Below, piece after piece: positions 24,114 to 41,769 of a stretch of 44,900 nt of DNA (positions within the stretch are counted from its first letter, which is position 1; the number at the start of each line of letters is the position of its first letter). A model generated the notes under the pieces. The model was not told where the DNA came from, did no database searches, and saw nothing but the letters and a program-made list of their open reading frames with translations. The stretch covers positions 1 to 44,900 of the forward strand of contig CANNKH010000003.1 in the NCBI GenBank assembly GCA_947504985.1, in the 5' to 3' direction. The stretch is from Methylococcaceae bacterium. GTDB taxonomy: Bacteria > Pseudomonadota > Gammaproteobacteria > Methylococcales > Methylomonadaceae. Position numbers and translations under genes: made by a program.

Positions 24114-27100
24114 ATGAATATTCGACATGCCATATTTATTATTGCAAAAGCTTTAGTCATCTCAGGCATCCTTTTGGTAGTGATGATTTCAGTTGGCTTT
24201 TTTGCTTTTCCGCCACTATTGAAAGCTAAATTACCGGAAATTATTAAGCAATACACTGGTCGCACGTCATCTATTACCCGCGTTCAACTTGGCTTGTTTC
24301 CCTTAGCGCTTAAACTACAGGGCTTCGATATTAAAGAACAGAATACGCAACCTTTCGCCTCGTTTGATACGCTTTATCTTCAAATTGATCCGTATCTATC
24401 AATTTTACAAAAAACGCTGATTATAAATAAAGTCAAACTGGATAAGCCTTACCTGCATATTGCTAGACAGCAAGAGGGTACCTTTAATTTTAGTGATCTC
24501 ATTAAAAATAAAACACCTGCTCCACCAGCTTCCAAAAACAGTACCTTATTTCCAATTACGATCACCAAGCTATCACTTTCAGCAGGTCAGTTGGTATGGG
24601 ACGACCGTTATGCAGGTCAAGCTATTACTGAAACAGTAACGCCTATACAGCTTGATATTGATGATTTTACAACGCGGACAGAGGGACAATCTCGACTTAT
24701 CTTAGCACTTGCTTTTGCTTCTGGTGGTCGTCTTCATTGGGAAGGTGATTTCGGTATCAATCCTTTCGTTTCAAAAGGACGTATCAAGTTGGACGATTGG
24801 CGTCTACAAAAAATGCCAATGTCAGCTATGCAGCTCAAGAATCTACAAGGGGCTATGCAACTTGATACCGATTATCAACTCAGTGCAGCCGAAGGTAAGG
24901 TAAAACTGTCGATCAACAAGGCCATAATAAATGCCCATGATGTCCAGTATGAGGCCGATGGACGCACATTTAAACTGGCAGATTTTACGCATGATAGCGA
25001 TTTGTCATTGCTTTACGCTAGCAACAACTGGCAACTTGATGTCAACAATGTCGGAATCATTAGTCACAATCTTCGTGTACAAGAAAAAAAATTGTTGGGT
25101 AAACTGTCTGATTTGGCACTGGAAGCCGCCTACAAAGTGACTTATGCCAATCATAGTTTGAATGTCATGATTAGTCAGGGCAAAGTTGATAGTAAAGGTT
25201 TGCAATTGTCAGAACACACTAAGCCGCTGTTTGCTATTCCTGTGCTTGCCTTTAAGGGTATCGCATTTAACCTGAATGATCGGCGGTTGAGTGTTGCTTC
25301 TGTGTCCGCTAACGATGCGACTATTAAAGCTGGGCTGAATACTGACGGTCGTTTTAATTATCAAGCTTTGCTGCCTGCAACCACCACCACTCTGCAATCT
25401 CCTCTCAGTGCCGATCAGCAAAAACCCTCTTGGCAACTTGCCGCTGACATGATTACCTTGAATCGCTGTTCACTCGATTTTGAAGACCAGACTTTGCCAA
25501 AACCATTTACATTTCATATCAAACCTATTGATTTCAAACTGACCGGTTTTAGTAATCAAAGCAAGACTAAATTACCTTTTCAGCTTAATGCTGGCATTAA
25601 CAAGAATGGCACTATTAATTTAAACGGCAGTGTAACCATGACCCCGCTCATCGCTGCTACCCTGGATATTGATGTTAAAAACATTGATTTAGCGAGCTAT
25701 CAGACCTATTTCGACCGCTTTATTCGCCTGGATGTTGTTGATGGACTGCTGGCAATTGATGGTCAAGTAACACTTGAAAAACGCGATAAACTGGCGTTTA
25801 CATTTACCGGTAATACCGGAATTACTGAGTTTTTAACGCGAGATCAGCGTGTACATAAAGATTTTGTAAAATGGGAGAACCTAAGCTTAAAAGACATCAA
25901 CATTGACTCATCAGCCAATCGTTACACAGCACAGACACTGGTGATTGATAAGCCTTATGCCAGAGTGACCATTAGAAAGGATAAGACCATCAATTTTTTT
26001 GGTCTCCTAATTGCCGACGAACGTCAATCTGAACCTGCCGTTAACAAAGATGAAGTCAATTCCGCTTACTTTAAACTGGGTAAGATTCAAATTACCGATG
26101 GTTATTCGGATTTTACCGATTTATCGCTGATTTTACCGTTTTCCGCACATGTACAAGGCTTGGATGGCGGTGCAAATGGCATTTCTTCAGAAAAAAATGC
26201 CCAATTTAATGTCATGTTAAAAGGTAACGCCTACGATTTGGCGCCAGTTGATGTTAGCGGCAAAATTAGTCCTTTTCTCGGCGATTACCATGTCTCAATC
26301 AATTTTAAAGGATTGCCCATGCCTCTGGTTTCCCCTTACATGGTGCAATTTGCCGGATATAAAGTTGAAAAGGGCAAAATGTCGCTGAAGCTGGATTATA
26401 AAATTGCAAACAAACAATTGACTGCCAGCAATAATTTATTAATCGATCAATTTGAATTGGGCGAGAAAGTAGACAATCCCAATGCGGTATCATTACCACT
26501 TAAGCTGGCTGTCGCGCTGCTTAAAGATTCCAGTGGCAGAATAAAATTTGATGTGCCAATTACCGGCAGTTTGGAAAATCCGCAATTCAGTCTGGGCGCT
26601 ATTATTGCTGATGCTTTGGTTAATGCGATTGGTAAAGTTGTGACTTCACCCTTTAGTGCCATTGCGTCACTGATCGGCAGTACACAAGATTTAAGTGCGG
26701 TCAGCTTTAATCCGGGTAGCTCGATATTAAGCACCCAACAAGAAGCGAAGCTTGCCGAAGTATCAAAAGCATTGCAGGAACGTCCGCAATTATCACTGGA
26801 AATTAAAGGCACAACTTCTCAGCAACAAGATTGGCCCGCAATAAGTGATGATGCGTTATACGATCAGTTAAAAATACGGCGGGCGGCAGAAATTAATCAA
26901 AAAGGTGTAAAAATCCGCCCGGAATATATAGCACTTACTGCGGAAGATTATCGACGTTTATTGGCAGATTTGTTTATCGAAAAATTTCCGTTGCTGGCAG
27001 AAAAATCATTTTTAGGCACGCCAGAATTAAAAGTACCGCAAACTGCCGATTTTTATGATGTCGCCAAACAAAAGTTGCTAGAAGTGATTAACCCTGAACA

Positions 27101-27266
27101 GGAACGGCTTAAAGAGTTGGCCGCACATAGAGCGCAGACTATCGCAAAATATATTGTCCAAAAAGGTGACATAGCTCAAGAACGGGTTTTTATACTCGAC
27201 CCTGTGGTTAATCCTGGTGACGATGCCAAAGAAATCATTAGCGTGTTATCGTTAAAAGCAAATTGA
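24114..27266 (+). CDS. AsmA-like / DUF748 envelope protein
   Basis: 1050 aa; N-terminal TM; repeated VxGxISPFLGDYHVSINFKGLPMPLVSPYMVQFAGY; GTTSQQQDW... C-terminus. Confidence 0.8.
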   Translation: MNIRHAIFIIAKALVISGILLVVMISVGFFAFPPLLKAKLPEIIKQYTGRTSSITRVQLGLFPLALKLQGFDIKEQNTQPFASFDTLYLQIDPYLSILQKTLIINKVKLDKPYLHIARQQEGTFNFSDLIKNKTPAPPASKNSTLFPITITKLSLSAGQLVWDDRYAGQAITETVTPIQLDIDDFTTRTEGQSRLILALAFASGGRLHWEGDFGINPFVSKGRIKLDDWRLQKMPMSAMQLKNLQGAMQLDTDYQLSAAEGKVKLSINKAIINAHDVQYEADGRTFKLADFTHDSDLSLLYASNNWQLDVNNVGIISHNLRVQEKKLLGKLSDLALEAAYKVTYANHSLNVMISQGKVDSKGLQLSEHTKPLFAIPVLAFKGIAFNLNDRRLSVASVSANDATIKAGLNTDGRFNYQALLPATTTTLQSPLSADQQKPSWQLAADMITLNRCSLDFEDQTLPKPFTFHIKPIDFKLTGFSNQSKTKLPFQLNAGINKNGTINLNGSVTMTPLIAATLDIDVKNIDLASYQTYFDRFIRLDVVDGLLAIDGQVTLEKRDKLAFTFTGNTGITEFLTRDQRVHKDFVKWENLSLKDINIDSSANRYTAQTLVIDKPYARVTIRKDKTINFFGLLIADERQSEPAVNKDEVNSAYFKLGKIQITDGYSDFTDLSLILPFSAHVQGLDGGANGISSEKNAQFNVMLKGNAYDLAPVDVSGKISPFLGDYHVSINFKGLPMPLVSPYMVQFAGYKVEKGKMSLKLDYKIANKQLTASNNLLIDQFELGEKVDNPNAVSLPLKLAVALLKDSSGRIKFDVPITGSLENPQFSLGAIIADALVNAIGKVVTSPFSAIASLIGSTQDLSAVSFNPGSSILSTQQEAKLAEVSKALQERPQLSLEIKGTTSQQQDWPAISDDALYDQLKIRRAAEINQKGVKIRPEYIALTAEDYRRLLADLFIEKFPLLAEKSFLGTPELKVPQTADFYDVAKQKLLEVINPEQERLKELAAHRAQTIAKYIVQKGDIAQERVFILDPVVNPGDDAKEIISVLSLKAN

Positions 27267-27321: not shown

Positions 27322-27365
27322 AAAGCCTTCTTCTGGAATATTCTGGAAGAAGGCTTTTTGTTTTA
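27322..27365 (+). terminator. Strong Rho-independent terminator
   Basis: AAAGCCTTCTTC-tggaatattctg-GAAGAAGGCTTT then TTGTTTT (12-bp perfect stem). Confidence 0.85.
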
Positions 27366-27562: not shown

Positions 27563-28315
27563 ATGTTTATCAATCAAAGAAAGTTGGTGTCCAGCTTATG
27601 TTTACTTACCGTCAGTGCCGTGTCCATGCCGGGGGCTATCGCCGCCGATAGGGAAATTGGCGGTTATGTTGATCGTGCGGAAAGCCGGTTTGTTCGTAAT
27701 GTGTGGAATTTTGTCAAAAATTTCCAAGGCTTTCAAACCATCGGCGCTAATCGTTATAAAAATGTTCAATATTATTGGGCAGAACCCTATATGTTCGACA
27801 GTTCACATGAAAATTATGTCGATAAAATGGATTTGGCCTTTTTTGCTGGTCACGGTAGTTCATATTACATCCAGACTAATCAAAGCACAGGTCAAGGTGT
27901 TGATTTAAGAACAGTTCCTGCTTATGGTGATTTGGCTAATAACGGGGATTTAGAATTTATGATTATTGAATCTTGTAGTACGGTGGCCACAGCGCCTGAT
28001 GCAGCAGATTGGTGGACACCCTATTCACCGATGTTCCAAGGCTTACATCAATTGGTAGGTTTTCGCACGCTTAGCTACTCTGACAACAGCATTCCAAACA
28101 ATTATGCCAATAAGCTAAAAGCGAACGGTGGCGTATGGCAATCATGGTTTGCTGCCCTCAACGAGGAGCGCTATTTTGCAGGCAGTTCAAACGCCGCTTA
28201 TCCAGGTATGGGCAGCGCGATCATGTATACCTCCACTGAGAATGATCGACTTGGCGCTTATGCCGCCGATCCTGCCGGTGGCACAGCAGGTATGAAAACT
28301 TGGTGGCAGTATTAA
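27563..28315 (+). CDS. Secreted DUF6345-like protein, putative clan-CD (caspase-like) fold
   Basis: ATG 27563 with GGAG 8 nt upstream; signal peptide ending AIAA; FFAGHGSS (His97) and IIESCST (Cys138). Confidence 0.7.
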   Translation: MFINQRKLVSSLCLLTVSAVSMPGAIAADREIGGYVDRAESRFVRNVWNFVKNFQGFQTIGANRYKNVQYYWAEPYMFDSSHENYVDKMDLAFFAGHGSSYYIQTNQSTGQGVDLRTVPAYGDLANNGDLEFMIIESCSTVATAPDAADWWTPYSPMFQGLHQLVGFRTLSYSDNSIPNNYANKLKANGGVWQSWFAALNEERYFAGSSNAAYPGMGSAIMYTSTENDRLGAYAADPAGGTAGMKTWWQY

Positions 28316-28340: not shown

Positions 28341-29309
28341 ATGAACGCGAAAAAACTTATTTCAACCCTCCTTTTAATCGCTGGAAATGTTGGCCTTATC
28401 GGTACACAAGCATTTGCAGAAACAACTACCGAAAACTTGTTTCTCTACAGCTTTGAGGAAGCCCCGATTCTTAACGTCGAGGCATCGCAAACATTAATGA
28501 AACAATTTTTGGATGGTGAATCAGTCGATAGGCTTAATCCATCACCAGACAAAACAGTACGCTATGTTTCACCTAATGATGTTAATACCACTTTTGAACA
28601 TAATCTTGTGACGGGAGACCTTCGATTTCACCGCAATTTTGCCCGTTACCTGGGGGATTTTGCGCCTGAACTTCCTTCAACAGAGGAAGCTATAAAAGTG
28701 GCGGAACTTTTTCTCGAAGAAAATAAATTGTTACCCGCTAACCCATCGGAATTAAAAATTGCCCATATTGGTGGATTACGTACCACAACCTTAATCGACG
28801 AAAATCATGCTGGACCAGTTATTGATAAATTAATTACACTGAATTATTCTCGTGAAATCAATGGAGTCCCTGTTATTGGTCCAGGATCAAAGCTAATTAT
28901 AGATATTGGTGAAAAAGGTGAAATTCTTAGCTTGACAAGGCATTGGCGGGAATTATCTCCGAAGGGACGTGAAATCAGTCCTGGGGATATGAATTCTTTA
29001 GATGAAGCACAGCGGTTAGTTGCGCTACAAATCAGCAAAGAATTTGGAGAGAAAGCCACCTTTGAGCTAATCGGATCACAGACGGCTTATTTCGATAATA
29101 ATGGCCGGTTGCTGCAACCGGTATACGCTTTCCAGACTAAAGTTTTCTTGCCAGATGAGCAGGCACAAGCGTTCGAGTACCTCAGTGTCATTCCTGTCCT
29201 GAGAAAATCACCAGAACAATTAAATCTGACTAAACTGGATACGAAAGCATTGCGTACGCTGAAAAATGGAGATGCGACCTTGTTCGGAAGACCCGGAAAG
29301 CTGGATTAA
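28341..29309 (+). CDS. Secreted hypothetical protein with FTP/PepSY-like propeptide features
   Basis: Signal peptide ending AFAE; LNYSREINGVPVIGPGSKLIIDIGEKGEILSLTRHWREL; 25 bp after the DUF6345-like gene. Confidence 0.6.
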   Translation: MNAKKLISTLLLIAGNVGLIGTQAFAETTTENLFLYSFEEAPILNVEASQTLMKQFLDGESVDRLNPSPDKTVRYVSPNDVNTTFEHNLVTGDLRFHRNFARYLGDFAPELPSTEEAIKVAELFLEENKLLPANPSELKIAHIGGLRTTTLIDENHAGPVIDKLITLNYSREINGVPVIGPGSKLIIDIGEKGEILSLTRHWRELSPKGREISPGDMNSLDEAQRLVALQISKEFGEKATFELIGSQTAYFDNNGRLLQPVYAFQTKVFLPDEQAQAFEYLSVIPVLRKSPEQLNLTKLDTKALRTLKNGDATLFGRPGKLD

Positions 29310-29457: not shown

Positions 29458-31143
29458 TCAGGTTGATGAGCGGTTATCAACTAACACTTTAAGTTGTTGT
29501 CCTGGACGAAGGCCTTTACTGAGTACTTCCACGTTCGATTTGCGTAAATCACTCAAAGGTACGTTAAATTTTTTGGCGATTTGTATCAATGAATCGCCCT
29601 GGGCTACCTTGTAATGAACAAGGCGAATGGAAGAAGAGGAAGCGAGCTGAGGATTGGCCGATTTAATGGCGAGTTTTCGCCCTGGAACTAAAGCTGTTTT
29701 TAACGTAATTTTGTTCCAATCAGCAATATCTTTGGGTGTTGCGGAAAACCGTTGGGAAATATTCCAGAAAGTATCGCCTTTCTTTACCGTATAAAACTGA
29801 TTACTGGCGACTTGATGGTTAGTTGTTTTTGAATCAAAAACGTGTTGAATACGTTTACCGGCGACAGGAATTTGTAATGTGCTACCCGATCGTACGGAAT
29901 TAGAGGTTAAATGGTTAGCTTGGCGCAGGTTATTAATCGTTGTATGGTTTTTCTCGGCAATCATTGCCAAGGTTTCCCCCGATTTAACCTTATAACGATT
30001 AGCAATAGTATGAACGTCCTCGCGTTTAATTTCGGTAGCCTTGCTTTCATTACGCTGAACCTGCGCAACAACGGTCGTCTCCGTGCGTATTTTGTTTAAA
30101 TCAACCCGTTCACCAAAGGGGAGTTGAGCCAGATTTCTTTTGAAAGATTGCGCCCGATCAACGGGAACTAATAAACGATGTGGTCCTTGAGGCGCGGTAC
30201 AGGATTTATTAAAACCAGGATTTAGTTTTACAAATTTATCATAAGGGGTATTCGCCAATTGCGCTGCTTTATGTAAATCCAGCGGGGATTTTATATCCAC
30301 TACTTCAAAATAAGGTTTATTAGGGATATGTTGCAAATGAATATTGTATTCTTCTGCATTAGCAAATATTTTGGCAATGGCCAATAACCGAGGCACATAA
30401 TCCACCGTTTCTTCAGGTAAGCTTAATGACCAGTAATCGGTTGGCAAGTTACGCTCTTCATTTTTTTCGATAGACTTTCTTACTCGACCTTTTCCGCAGT
30501 TATACGAGGCAAGGGCAAGCAGCCAATCGCCATCAAAGGTTTCACTCAATTCTTTAAGGTAGGTTGTTGCCGCTTTGGTTGAAGCATAAACATCACGACG
30601 ACCGTCATACCAGGCATTTTGTTGCAAGCCATACTCTTCACCGGTGGAAGGTACAAATTGCCAAAGTCCTGAAGCATCGGCATGTGAATAAGCGTCAGGT
30701 ACGAATGCACTTTCAACAACCGGCAATAATGCCAATTCTCCAGGAATATTTTTTGCCTCGACTTCATCAAGAATATGATGCAGATAAGGTTCTGCACGTT
30801 GCTGGATGATCGCCAAAGAAGCAGGATGTTGCAAATACCAATTGACTTCTTCATCAATTCGGTAATGTTCAATCTCGGGTAACGAATATAACGACAATAA
30901 ACGATCCCAGACGGTGTTACGGTTTGTTAATGCAGTTTTGGATTTATATTTGCCGAATTTGAGGCGGGAACTGGCGTGTGGGTATTGCTCATAAAGGCCA
31001 CTTTGTTCGTCAGTGTTTGAATTACCAGGTAACTGATCACTGAGGCTGAGCGGTTTTTCAGAGGTTCCTGAACAGCCTGCTGCGAGCAGCGCCAGCAAAA
31101 TTAATAGAAAATTAACTGACCTGTTAAAATTAACATGCATCAT
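29458..31143 (-). CDS. mltD: Membrane-bound lytic murein transglycosylase D with three LysM repeats
   Basis: Lipobox LAAGCS; SLT domain VVESAFVPDAYSHADASGLWQFVPSTG; LysM repeats YKVKSGETL, YTVKKGDTF, YKVAQGDSL. Confidence 0.92.
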   Translation of the reverse strand: MMHVNFNRSVNFLLILLALLAAGCSGTSEKPLSLSDQLPGNSNTDEQSGLYEQYPHASSRLKFGKYKSKTALTNRNTVWDRLLSLYSLPEIEHYRIDEEVNWYLQHPASLAIIQQRAEPYLHHILDEVEAKNIPGELALLPVVESAFVPDAYSHADASGLWQFVPSTGEEYGLQQNAWYDGRRDVYASTKAATTYLKELSETFDGDWLLALASYNCGKGRVRKSIEKNEERNLPTDYWSLSLPEETVDYVPRLLAIAKIFANAEEYNIHLQHIPNKPYFEVVDIKSPLDLHKAAQLANTPYDKFVKLNPGFNKSCTAPQGPHRLLVPVDRAQSFKRNLAQLPFGERVDLNKIRTETTVVAQVQRNESKATEIKREDVHTIANRYKVKSGETLAMIAEKNHTTINNLRQANHLTSNSVRSGSTLQIPVAGKRIQHVFDSKTTNHQVASNQFYTVKKGDTFWNISQRFSATPKDIADWNKITLKTALVPGRKLAIKSANPQLASSSSIRLVHYKVAQGDSLIQIAKKFNVPLSDLRKSNVEVLSKGLRPGQQLKVLVDNRSST

Positions 31144-39708: not shown

Positions 39709-41769
39709 ATGAAGTTAATTAATTACCCAATAGGTATAAAAATACTCGGGTTAATCAGTGCCTCGCTCATTTTTTTAGCGATTCATACTGACGCGCAAGC
39801 AGCGCAAAAAACGAATCAGCTCAAGCCTAAACATGTCGCCTCATTCAAGCAATTAAAGCGAATGCTTTCTGCAAAAAGGGTACATGCCAATAATTTTTTA
39901 GTTTTTAAAACGATGACATTAGCGGATGGGGGAACCGCCGTATTTAACTCGGCTCCTACAGAATCTGGTGCAATCGAACATTCAGATACCAATATACAAG
40001 TGCAAGGTGTTGATGAAGGCGATACCGTTAAAACCGATGGTCAGTACATTTACCGCATTCAAAACGGTCAAGTGAACATCATGCAGGCTTATCCTGCCAA
40101 TAGCATGGCATCGATTGCCAGCTTGAAATTTGATACGCAATTCAGCCCTATTGAGCTTTATGTTCAGGGTGAGCAAATGATTGTTATTGGTACAGGTTGG
40201 CGAGCCGATAGTAACAATAACGCGGTGCCGGTTTTGCAAAAACAAAGGCAAACCAAAATGGCGATTTGGGCACCTTCGGGAGAAAGCCGCACAATGGCGC
40301 GCGTTTATGACATTAGTGATCGTACTGCACCGGTTATACAGCGCGAAATTGCCTTTACTGGCGATTATCTGTCTTCGCGCAAAATTGACGACAACGTCTA
40401 TCTGATAGGAAGAAAGTATCCCAATTATTACTTCAGATATTTTGGGTTTGGCCTTATGGCATCGGACAGCGCAAAAATGACCACCGATAATGTGTTACCG
40501 CATATCAGTGACAGTGCCGTTGCCAACGGCGAAGAACATACTTTGCCATTGACTGACCTGTATTATTTTCCCAATTTTGTTGAACCGGATTATGTCGTTG
40601 TGGCAGGTTTTAGCCTTAGTGCCTTGAATCAACAAGCTGATATTAAAGCGTATTTGGGTAGCGGCGATATTACTTATGCTTCCAGCAAAAATTTATATCT
40701 CTCGGCGGCAGATTACAACAGCGATACCGTAACCGATTCATCAGTATCCTCACCGGTCACGCATCTTTATAAATTTGCACTTGATAAGGGTGGTGTTACT
40801 TTTAGCAAAGCGGGCGAAGTGCCGGGCGTGGTGTTAAATTCCTTTTCAATGGATGAACATAACGATTATTTCCGCATAGCCACTACAGTTGATCAATGGA
40901 CAACCTCAGGTGATATTGGCAATCTTCAGACTTGGAACAATCTTTATACCTTAGATAGTGATATGAAAATTGCGGGTCGTCTTGAACATTTAGCCGAAGG
41001 TGAGCGCATTTACTCAGCGCGTTTTATGGGGGATCGCAGTTATCTGGTCACCTTCCGTCAAACTGATCCCTTGTTTGTAATTGACCTGTCCACACCTACG
41101 GCGCCTAAAGTATTAGGTGAGTTAAAAATTCCTGGGTTTAGCAATTATCTGCATCCTTATGATGAAAACCATATTCTCGGCTTTGGGCAAGATACCCAAG
41201 AAACCAGTACAGGCGTGGTGACTAAAGGCATGAAACTGGCAATGTTTGATGTGACCGATGTGGCTAATCCCACTGAAATGCACAGTTTGACTATTGGCGA
41301 TCAGGGTACTTACTCACCGTTAATGTGGGATCATAAAGCCTTATTGTTTGACAAAAAACGCGGTCTGTTAGGTTTTCCTATCAGCGAAACAGCGCAACAA
41401 GCCGGAGACCAATGGCCTTCAGAAGTTTTCCAAGGGGCGCATATTTACAAAATCAGTTTGGCTGACGGGTTTCAAAAACAAGCGGCCATTACGCATCAGG
41501 ATAATGGTGAAATGTATAACTGGAATCATTATATTCAGCGCCTGTTGACGATTGGCGATCAGTTGTACACGCTTTCTGAAACTAGGGTGCAAGCCAATGA
41601 TCTGACTGATTTTAAGCAAACCGGTGTATTAGATTCGCCTATTGAAATCTTACCCGTAACAGACTGTGTGCTGCCGCAAACTGATGAAACGGTTGTTGGC
41701 GAAATTGCCAGTGATTGCCAAATACTTATTGACCCACCGATACCGGTTTCCATCCAAACTTTACAATAG
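39709..41769 (+). CDS. Secreted beta-propeller domain protein
   Basis: 686 aa; signal peptide; signature SDTNIQVQGVDEGDTVKTDGQYIYRI; RVYDISD, MFDVTDVANP repeats. Confidence 0.85.
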   Translation: MKLINYPIGIKILGLISASLIFLAIHTDAQAAQKTNQLKPKHVASFKQLKRMLSAKRVHANNFLVFKTMTLADGGTAVFNSAPTESGAIEHSDTNIQVQGVDEGDTVKTDGQYIYRIQNGQVNIMQAYPANSMASIASLKFDTQFSPIELYVQGEQMIVIGTGWRADSNNNAVPVLQKQRQTKMAIWAPSGESRTMARVYDISDRTAPVIQREIAFTGDYLSSRKIDDNVYLIGRKYPNYYFRYFGFGLMASDSAKMTTDNVLPHISDSAVANGEEHTLPLTDLYYFPNFVEPDYVVVAGFSLSALNQQADIKAYLGSGDITYASSKNLYLSAADYNSDTVTDSSVSSPVTHLYKFALDKGGVTFSKAGEVPGVVLNSFSMDEHNDYFRIATTVDQWTTSGDIGNLQTWNNLYTLDSDMKIAGRLEHLAEGERIYSARFMGDRSYLVTFRQTDPLFVIDLSTPTAPKVLGELKIPGFSNYLHPYDENHILGFGQDTQETSTGVVTKGMKLAMFDVTDVANPTEMHSLTIGDQGTYSPLMWDHKALLFDKKRGLLGFPISETAQQAGDQWPSEVFQGAHIYKISLADGFQKQAAITHQDNGEMYNWNHYIQRLLTIGDQLYTLSETRVQANDLTDFKQTGVLDSPIEILPVTDCVLPQTDETVVGEIASDCQILIDPPIPVSIQTLQ

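Follow-up and report, generated by a model that had tools for sequence, protein, structure and literature searches.

A two-gene unit predicted to encode an exported caspase-fold peptidase of the DUF6345 family and a separate FTP/PepSY-type pro-domain

Introduction

A stretch of 44,900 nucleotides from a Methylococcaceae bacterium (contig CANNKH010000003.1, positions 1 to 44,900, hereafter the window) carries a gene for an uncharacterised protein that a sequence-only reading had described as a possible caspase-fold peptidase. What would such an exported protein do, and does its genomic setting tell how it may be controlled? In clan CD, to which the caspases belong, a His followed by a Cys forms the catalytic dyad at the C-terminal ends of strands beta3 and beta4 of a caspase-type sheet (PMC4357240), and a Gly adjoins the catalytic His (PMC4357240, PMC12445089). 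The clan comprises eight families in MEROPS, C11, C123, C13, C14, C25, C50, C80 and C84, as listed in 2025 (PMC12445089). Here we combined profile searches, structure prediction and comparison of genomic loci for this gene and for the gene that follows it.

An exported DUF6345 protein with a conserved His/Cys dyad

The product of the gene passed the curated cut-off of the Pfam model PF19872 (DUF6345) with E=4.2e-22 and 79.1 bits against 26.9. It begins with a typical signal peptide that is predicted to be cleaved after about residue 27, and His97 and Cys138 close two hydrophobic strands in the remainder of the protein (Table 1). The export signal, the resemblance to DUF6345 and the spacing of 41 residues between His97 and Cys138 had all been proposed from the sequence and were confirmed here. 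No NCBIfam model matched the window protein and a search of the PDB with its sequence returned nothing useful.

Table 1. Coordinates of the features of the DUF6345 locus in the window
Feature	Coordinates	Strand	Evidence
Terminator-like hairpin	27322..27357	+	16-pair stem, 4-base loop, then T-rich tail
DUF6345 gene, 250 aa (start ATG, stop TAA included), putative exported clan CD cysteine peptidase	27563..28315	+	PF19872 match, model fold, C14 profile match
Sec signal peptide, residues 1-27, cleavage site AIA/AD	27563..27643	+	sequence, hydrophobic stretch
Strand beta3 and His motif DLAFFAGHGSSYY, residues 90-102 (His97 codon 27851-27853)	27830..27868	+	conservation, strand 91-95 in model
Strand beta4 and Cys motif DLEFMIIESCSTV, residues 129-141 (Cys138 codon 27974-27976)	27947..27985	+	conservation, strand 132-137 in model
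Partner gene, 322 aa, exported protein with predicted FTP/PepSY propeptide fold	28341..29309	+	pairing, fusion, fold, profile match

Homologs were collected by Pfam searches of whole genomes and by a scan of GTDB species genomes, and after removal of duplicates 47 distinct DUF6345 domains were aligned. His97 is invariant in these domains, which come from several phyla (47/47), and Cys138 is found in 46 of them. This pattern is not due to chance, because it extends to homologs less than 20% identical to the window protein and because the mature window protein has no cysteine other than Cys138. Conservation of the two residues, which the sequence-only reading had set as a check, was thus observed. 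The same holds for their surroundings: Gly98 is present in 46/47 domains and Gly96 in 35/47, so that a Gly stands beside the His as in clan CD, and the residue just before Cys138 is always small (Ser in 35, Thr in 7 and Ala in 5 of the 47), in the place where the classic clan CD motif has Ala. Other near-invariant positions are Asp87 (44/47), Gly122 (45/47), Gly166 (46/47) and Trp195 (42/47, otherwise Phe). In 18 of 33 DUF6345 proteins, the window protein included, the part that follows the signal peptide has Cys138 as its sole cysteine. That an exported protein conserves this one cysteine and no other suggests that it is a nucleophile.

The residue two positions before Cys138 is Glu in 25/47 domains and otherwise Gln, Ser, His, Asp or Met, so that no single P1 specificity can be deduced for the family. 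In MALT1 Asp462 is part of the S1 site (PMC4357240) and Glu136 of the window protein occupies its place, which suggests that the subfamily of the window protein would cleave after basic residues; the position varies in the other subfamilies. Of note, one homolog (locus L003, 1432-2274) keeps the His and has a Ser in place of Cys138 (FIHFSSSYS). It is possibly a pseudo-enzyme or an enzyme with a serine nucleophile.

A predicted caspase-type fold

We built an AlphaFold2 model of the DUF6345 protein on an alignment of 33 rows (pLDDT 82.8, pTM 0.79). The model consists of beta1 (32-36), alpha1 (41-54), beta2 (70-72), beta3 (91-95) followed by His97, two small strands (102-104 and 112-114), beta4 (132-137) followed by Cys138, a helix (152-157), beta5 (163-168), two helices (177-186 and 191-201) and beta6 (217-222). 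This is the order of elements in caspases, which includes a small extra sheet after beta3 (PMC4357240). In the predicted model the two strands end directly before His97 and Cys138, that is where clan CD places its dyad.

A Foldseek search of the PDB with the model returned clan CD proteins only at ranks 1 to 34. The best E-values were obtained with SAVED-CHAT (1.9e-5) and caspase-8 (9.7e-4), and the other matches included CED-3, the C11 protein 6n9j, further caspases, MALT1, the Craspase TPR-CHAT and PIGK. The TM-scores of the clearest matches were modest (0.34-0.49 by query length), which indicates a distant match to clan CD. An independent comparison was made at the profile level by aligning 30 C14 proteins from genomes of the same family and comparing them with the DUF6345 profile using hhalign. 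The two profiles matched with P=2e-4 and a score of 35.7, while 20 column shuffles scored at most 14.0 and the reversed alignment 21.3. In this alignment AGHG stands opposite AGHG and ESC opposite DAC, which places His97 and Cys138 on the catalytic dyad of C14. Against a CHAT profile only the Cys strand was aligned and the match was not significant. In all, the fold is well supported, and the caspase-like reading of the sequence, its placement of the two motifs as in clan CD and the structure prediction with fold search that it had suggested as a check came out as anticipated.

By sequence DUF6345 stands outside the described clan CD families, because all 33 members examined matched Pfam DUF6345 and none matched a clan CD Pfam model (C14, CHAT and others) up to E=1. 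Matches of the 33-member profile to designed 'Pizza' beta-propellers were rejected as a repeat artefact, since single stretches contributed 2-8 bits and were significant only when summed. A viral structure library yielded little for this fold, namely one phage protein and an ascovirus caspase. In genomes of the window's family C14 is found in 41/61 and CHAT in 30/61, the window's own genome included.

The downstream gene encodes a propeptide-like protein

The sequence-only reading had overlooked the pro-domain-like gene that begins 25 nucleotides 3' of the DUF6345 gene, referred to here as the partner gene. The partner protein of the window by itself has no Pfam match, and Pfam FTP (PF07504) was matched weakly by 5 of 25 partner members, with a best E-value of 0.0026. 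The AlphaFold2 model of the partner (pLDDT 81) matched 5coz, YycI (2o3o), the fungalysin chain 4k90_B (E=3.6e-4) and chains of the vibriolysin MCP-02 propeptide (3nqz_A, E=1.1e-2). We take 4k90_B, 3nqz_A and 3nqy_A to be propeptide chains from their lengths (174-207 residues). When the partner was compared by hhalign with a profile of FTP-containing propeptides drawn from other genomes of the same class, the match reached a probability of 92% (P=7e-7, score 53.9), with 20 shuffled controls scoring at most 20.7, and the alignment covered both the FTP and the PepSY parts. Model and profile therefore give good support to assigning the partner to the predicted FTP/PepSY fold, the one found in the propeptides of thermolysin and fungalysin.

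Proteobacterial partners carry plain signal peptides, whereas those of five Bacteroidota loci (L020, L027, L030, L032 and L038) carry a lipobox, which would anchor the partner in a membrane.

Pairing, fusion and spread of the two genes

In tblastn searches a relative of the partner was found directly downstream of DUF6345 in most loci. With the partner profile it was recognised as the gene immediately following DUF6345, in the same orientation, in 36/47 distinct loci, a figure that leans to the window's subfamily because part of the loci were gathered with close relatives as query. The gap between the two genes is generally 12 to 125 nucleotides, and the paired loci span Methylococcales, Cellvibrionaceae, Pseudomonadales, Thiocystis, Chlorobiaceae, Bacteroidota and Planctomycetota. 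The partner profile matched five of 101 genomes of the window's family, in each case beside DUF6345 and never alone; two other DUF6345-positive genomes of this family carry the long forms L008 and L009 described below. The pairing is thus well supported.

In two loci the partner and DUF6345 are fused. L118 and L119 encode single proteins of about 630 residues in which the N-terminal partner domain (about 118-348, E about 1e-28 to 1e-25) precedes DUF6345 (about 402-586), which is the order of a zymogen. Nine divergent loci have a weak partner, or one discerned solely as an extension or downstream gene of PepSY-like type. Five proteins of 530-610 residues form a long-form branch (L008, L009, L116, L117 and L123) in which DUF6345 comes first and is followed by a C-terminal region that was read as PepSY-like from its motifs, without strong matches to the partner profile. 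L117 gave weak matches to the partner profile (1e-5) and to the PepSY-type DUF4901 (9e-4). BLASTP of the partner against L008 or L009 found nothing significant, so that reading these two as fusions relies on motifs and on the weak and DUF4901 matches in relatives such as L117. In L003, L011, L120 and L121 an open reading frame of 320-380 codons lies directly downstream, and the partner profile matches it weakly or misses it. In L120 (1-2154) DUF6345 ends a chain of more than 700 residues with weak Ig-like (Big_1) similarity upstream, and this is a possible surface-anchored form.

Pairwise identities of DUF6345 and partner proteins are correlated (Pearson r=0.88, 300 pairs), as expected of a co-inherited pair, and this correlation alone does not imply binding. 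The partner changes faster, with a mean identity of 32% against 50% for DUF6345. The family occurs in Gammaproteobacteria, Bacteroidota, Chlorobiaceae, Planctomycetota and Methanosarcina. A homolog of the bacteroidete Mangrovibacterium shares 70% identity with the window protein, which is missing from four sampled genomes of the window's own genus; together these findings point to transfer of the cassette of DUF6345 and partner between phyla. No relatives were found in IMG/VR and the plasmids searched gave one weak match, in Deinococcus, so that, as far as seen, the gene belongs to neither phages nor plasmids.

Proposed mechanism and alternative explanations

We propose, with a probability of about 0.72, that DUF6345 and the partner form one two-gene unit made of a clan CD peptidase and an FTP/PepSY pro-domain acting in trans. 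The proposal builds on the export signals, the conserved dyad, the clan CD fold in model and profile, the pairing and the two fusions, all established computationally. The first gene would encode a cysteine peptidase with a His97/Cys138 dyad that is exported by Sec and has no propeptide in its own chain. The product of the second gene is likewise predicted to be exported, and to fold like the propeptides of the thermolysin and fungalysin types. It probably binds to the peptidase in the periplasm or, in those Bacteroidota whose partner has a lipobox, at the membrane. There it would act as a pro-domain in trans, both helping the peptidase to fold and inhibiting it until release, and in some lineages the two halves would be joined in one chain. 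Peptidase activity, direct binding and the role of the partner as inhibitor or chaperone are what we infer from these results.

Three other explanations were weighed. DUF6345 could be a clan CD peptidase whose partner is a substrate or a YycI-like sensor that is cut to relay an outside signal, in keeping with the presence of YycI, which regulates a sensor kinase, among the best fold matches of the partner and with the membrane-anchored partners of Bacteroidota. The strong profile match of the partner to propeptides and the zymogen order of L118 and L119 argue for a pro-domain instead, and the pair has no conserved regulator or kinase gene next to it; we consider a substrate or sensor unlikely. 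That the conserved His and Cys are structural or bind a metal, as such pairs can, in a non-catalytic binding protein that has kept the caspase fold would agree with the absence of the Cys from L003. Such a role is quite improbable given that the two residues are conserved precisely where clan CD has its dyad, flanked by the Gly and the small residue, and that a propeptide-like partner suits an enzyme.

The caspase fold might also serve to link proteins to the cell surface, through a transpeptidase or ligase activity comparable to that of PIGK or the sortase-like enzymes of the C25 type, with the partner presenting the substrate. PIGK, a subunit of the GPI transamidase, is indeed among the fold matches, and ligation is also known from enzymes of clan CD such as legumain (PMC9604545). 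PIGK is nevertheless one weak match amid many hydrolases, and neither a sorted surface protein family nor secretion genes are linked to the pair; we regard a transpeptidase or ligase as very unlikely.

Relation to known systems

The proposed unit of peptidase and trans-acting pro-domain resembles several known systems in part. DUF6345 shares with C14 (caspases, metacaspases and paracaspases) the model fold, the strand-HG and strand-(S/A)C motifs, the order and spacing of the dyad and the profile match described above; unlike C14, it has no Pfam C14 match among 33 members, is exported and is paired or fused with an FTP/PepSY protein. C11 (clostripain) and C25 (gingipain) are, like DUF6345, secreted with a caspase fold, and a C11 structure was among the fold matches. 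Their pro-segments have folds other than FTP/PepSY and lie in the same chain, unlike the usually separate DUF6345 partner, and no Pfam match links the families. C25 enzymes are processed or controlled by a pro-domain (PMC4357240). The partner itself resembles the FTP/PepSY propeptides of M4 and M36 (thermolysin, vibriolysin and fungalysin) in fold and profile, but most loci encode it separately, and it stands beside a caspase-fold protein, not a metallopeptidase. Adjacent genes for an exported cysteine protease and its specific inhibitor or propeptide analogue are known from SpeB-Spi, where Spi is the propeptide analogue, staphopain-staphostatin and the Bacteroides C10 pair bfp-bfi (PMC2873492). 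Those proteases are papain-like enzymes of clan CA with unrelated inhibitors, whereas the DUF6345 pair would combine clan CD with a PepSY/FTP partner.

Neither 'DUF6345' nor 'PF19872' appears in any paper of the open-access literature searched, and we found in these papers no account of a thermolysin-type pro-domain paired in trans with a clan CD enzyme. We conclude that DUF6345 is a clan CD family of putative peptidases undescribed in these papers and among the eight MEROPS families, with a predicted pro-domain or inhibitor usually encoded in trans. The balance tilts somewhat towards the broader view of a new clan CD family whose FTP/PepSY pro-domain has been uncoupled to act in trans and which moved between phyla as a two-gene cassette. 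If so, the uncharacterised DUF6345 family would gain a function and a testable pair of protease and controller, clan CD would grow beyond the families listed in 2025, and a pro-domain known from zinc metallopeptidases would also serve caspase-fold cysteine peptidases, even as a separate protein.

Genomic surroundings

The terminator-like hairpin lies between the pair and the upstream DUF748/AsmA gene, and a search of the gap upstream of the DUF6345 gene revealed no sigma-70-like promoter. Other neighbours in the window are kept only in its closest relative, L012. The DUF748/AsmA protein (24114-27266) includes a stretch that is OmpA-like, and 29458-31143 encodes a transglycosylase of the MltD-like kind with three LysM domains; both neighbours are ordinary. 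Further downstream, 39709-41769 encodes a beta-propeller protein that matches PF09826 (E=1.3e-168).
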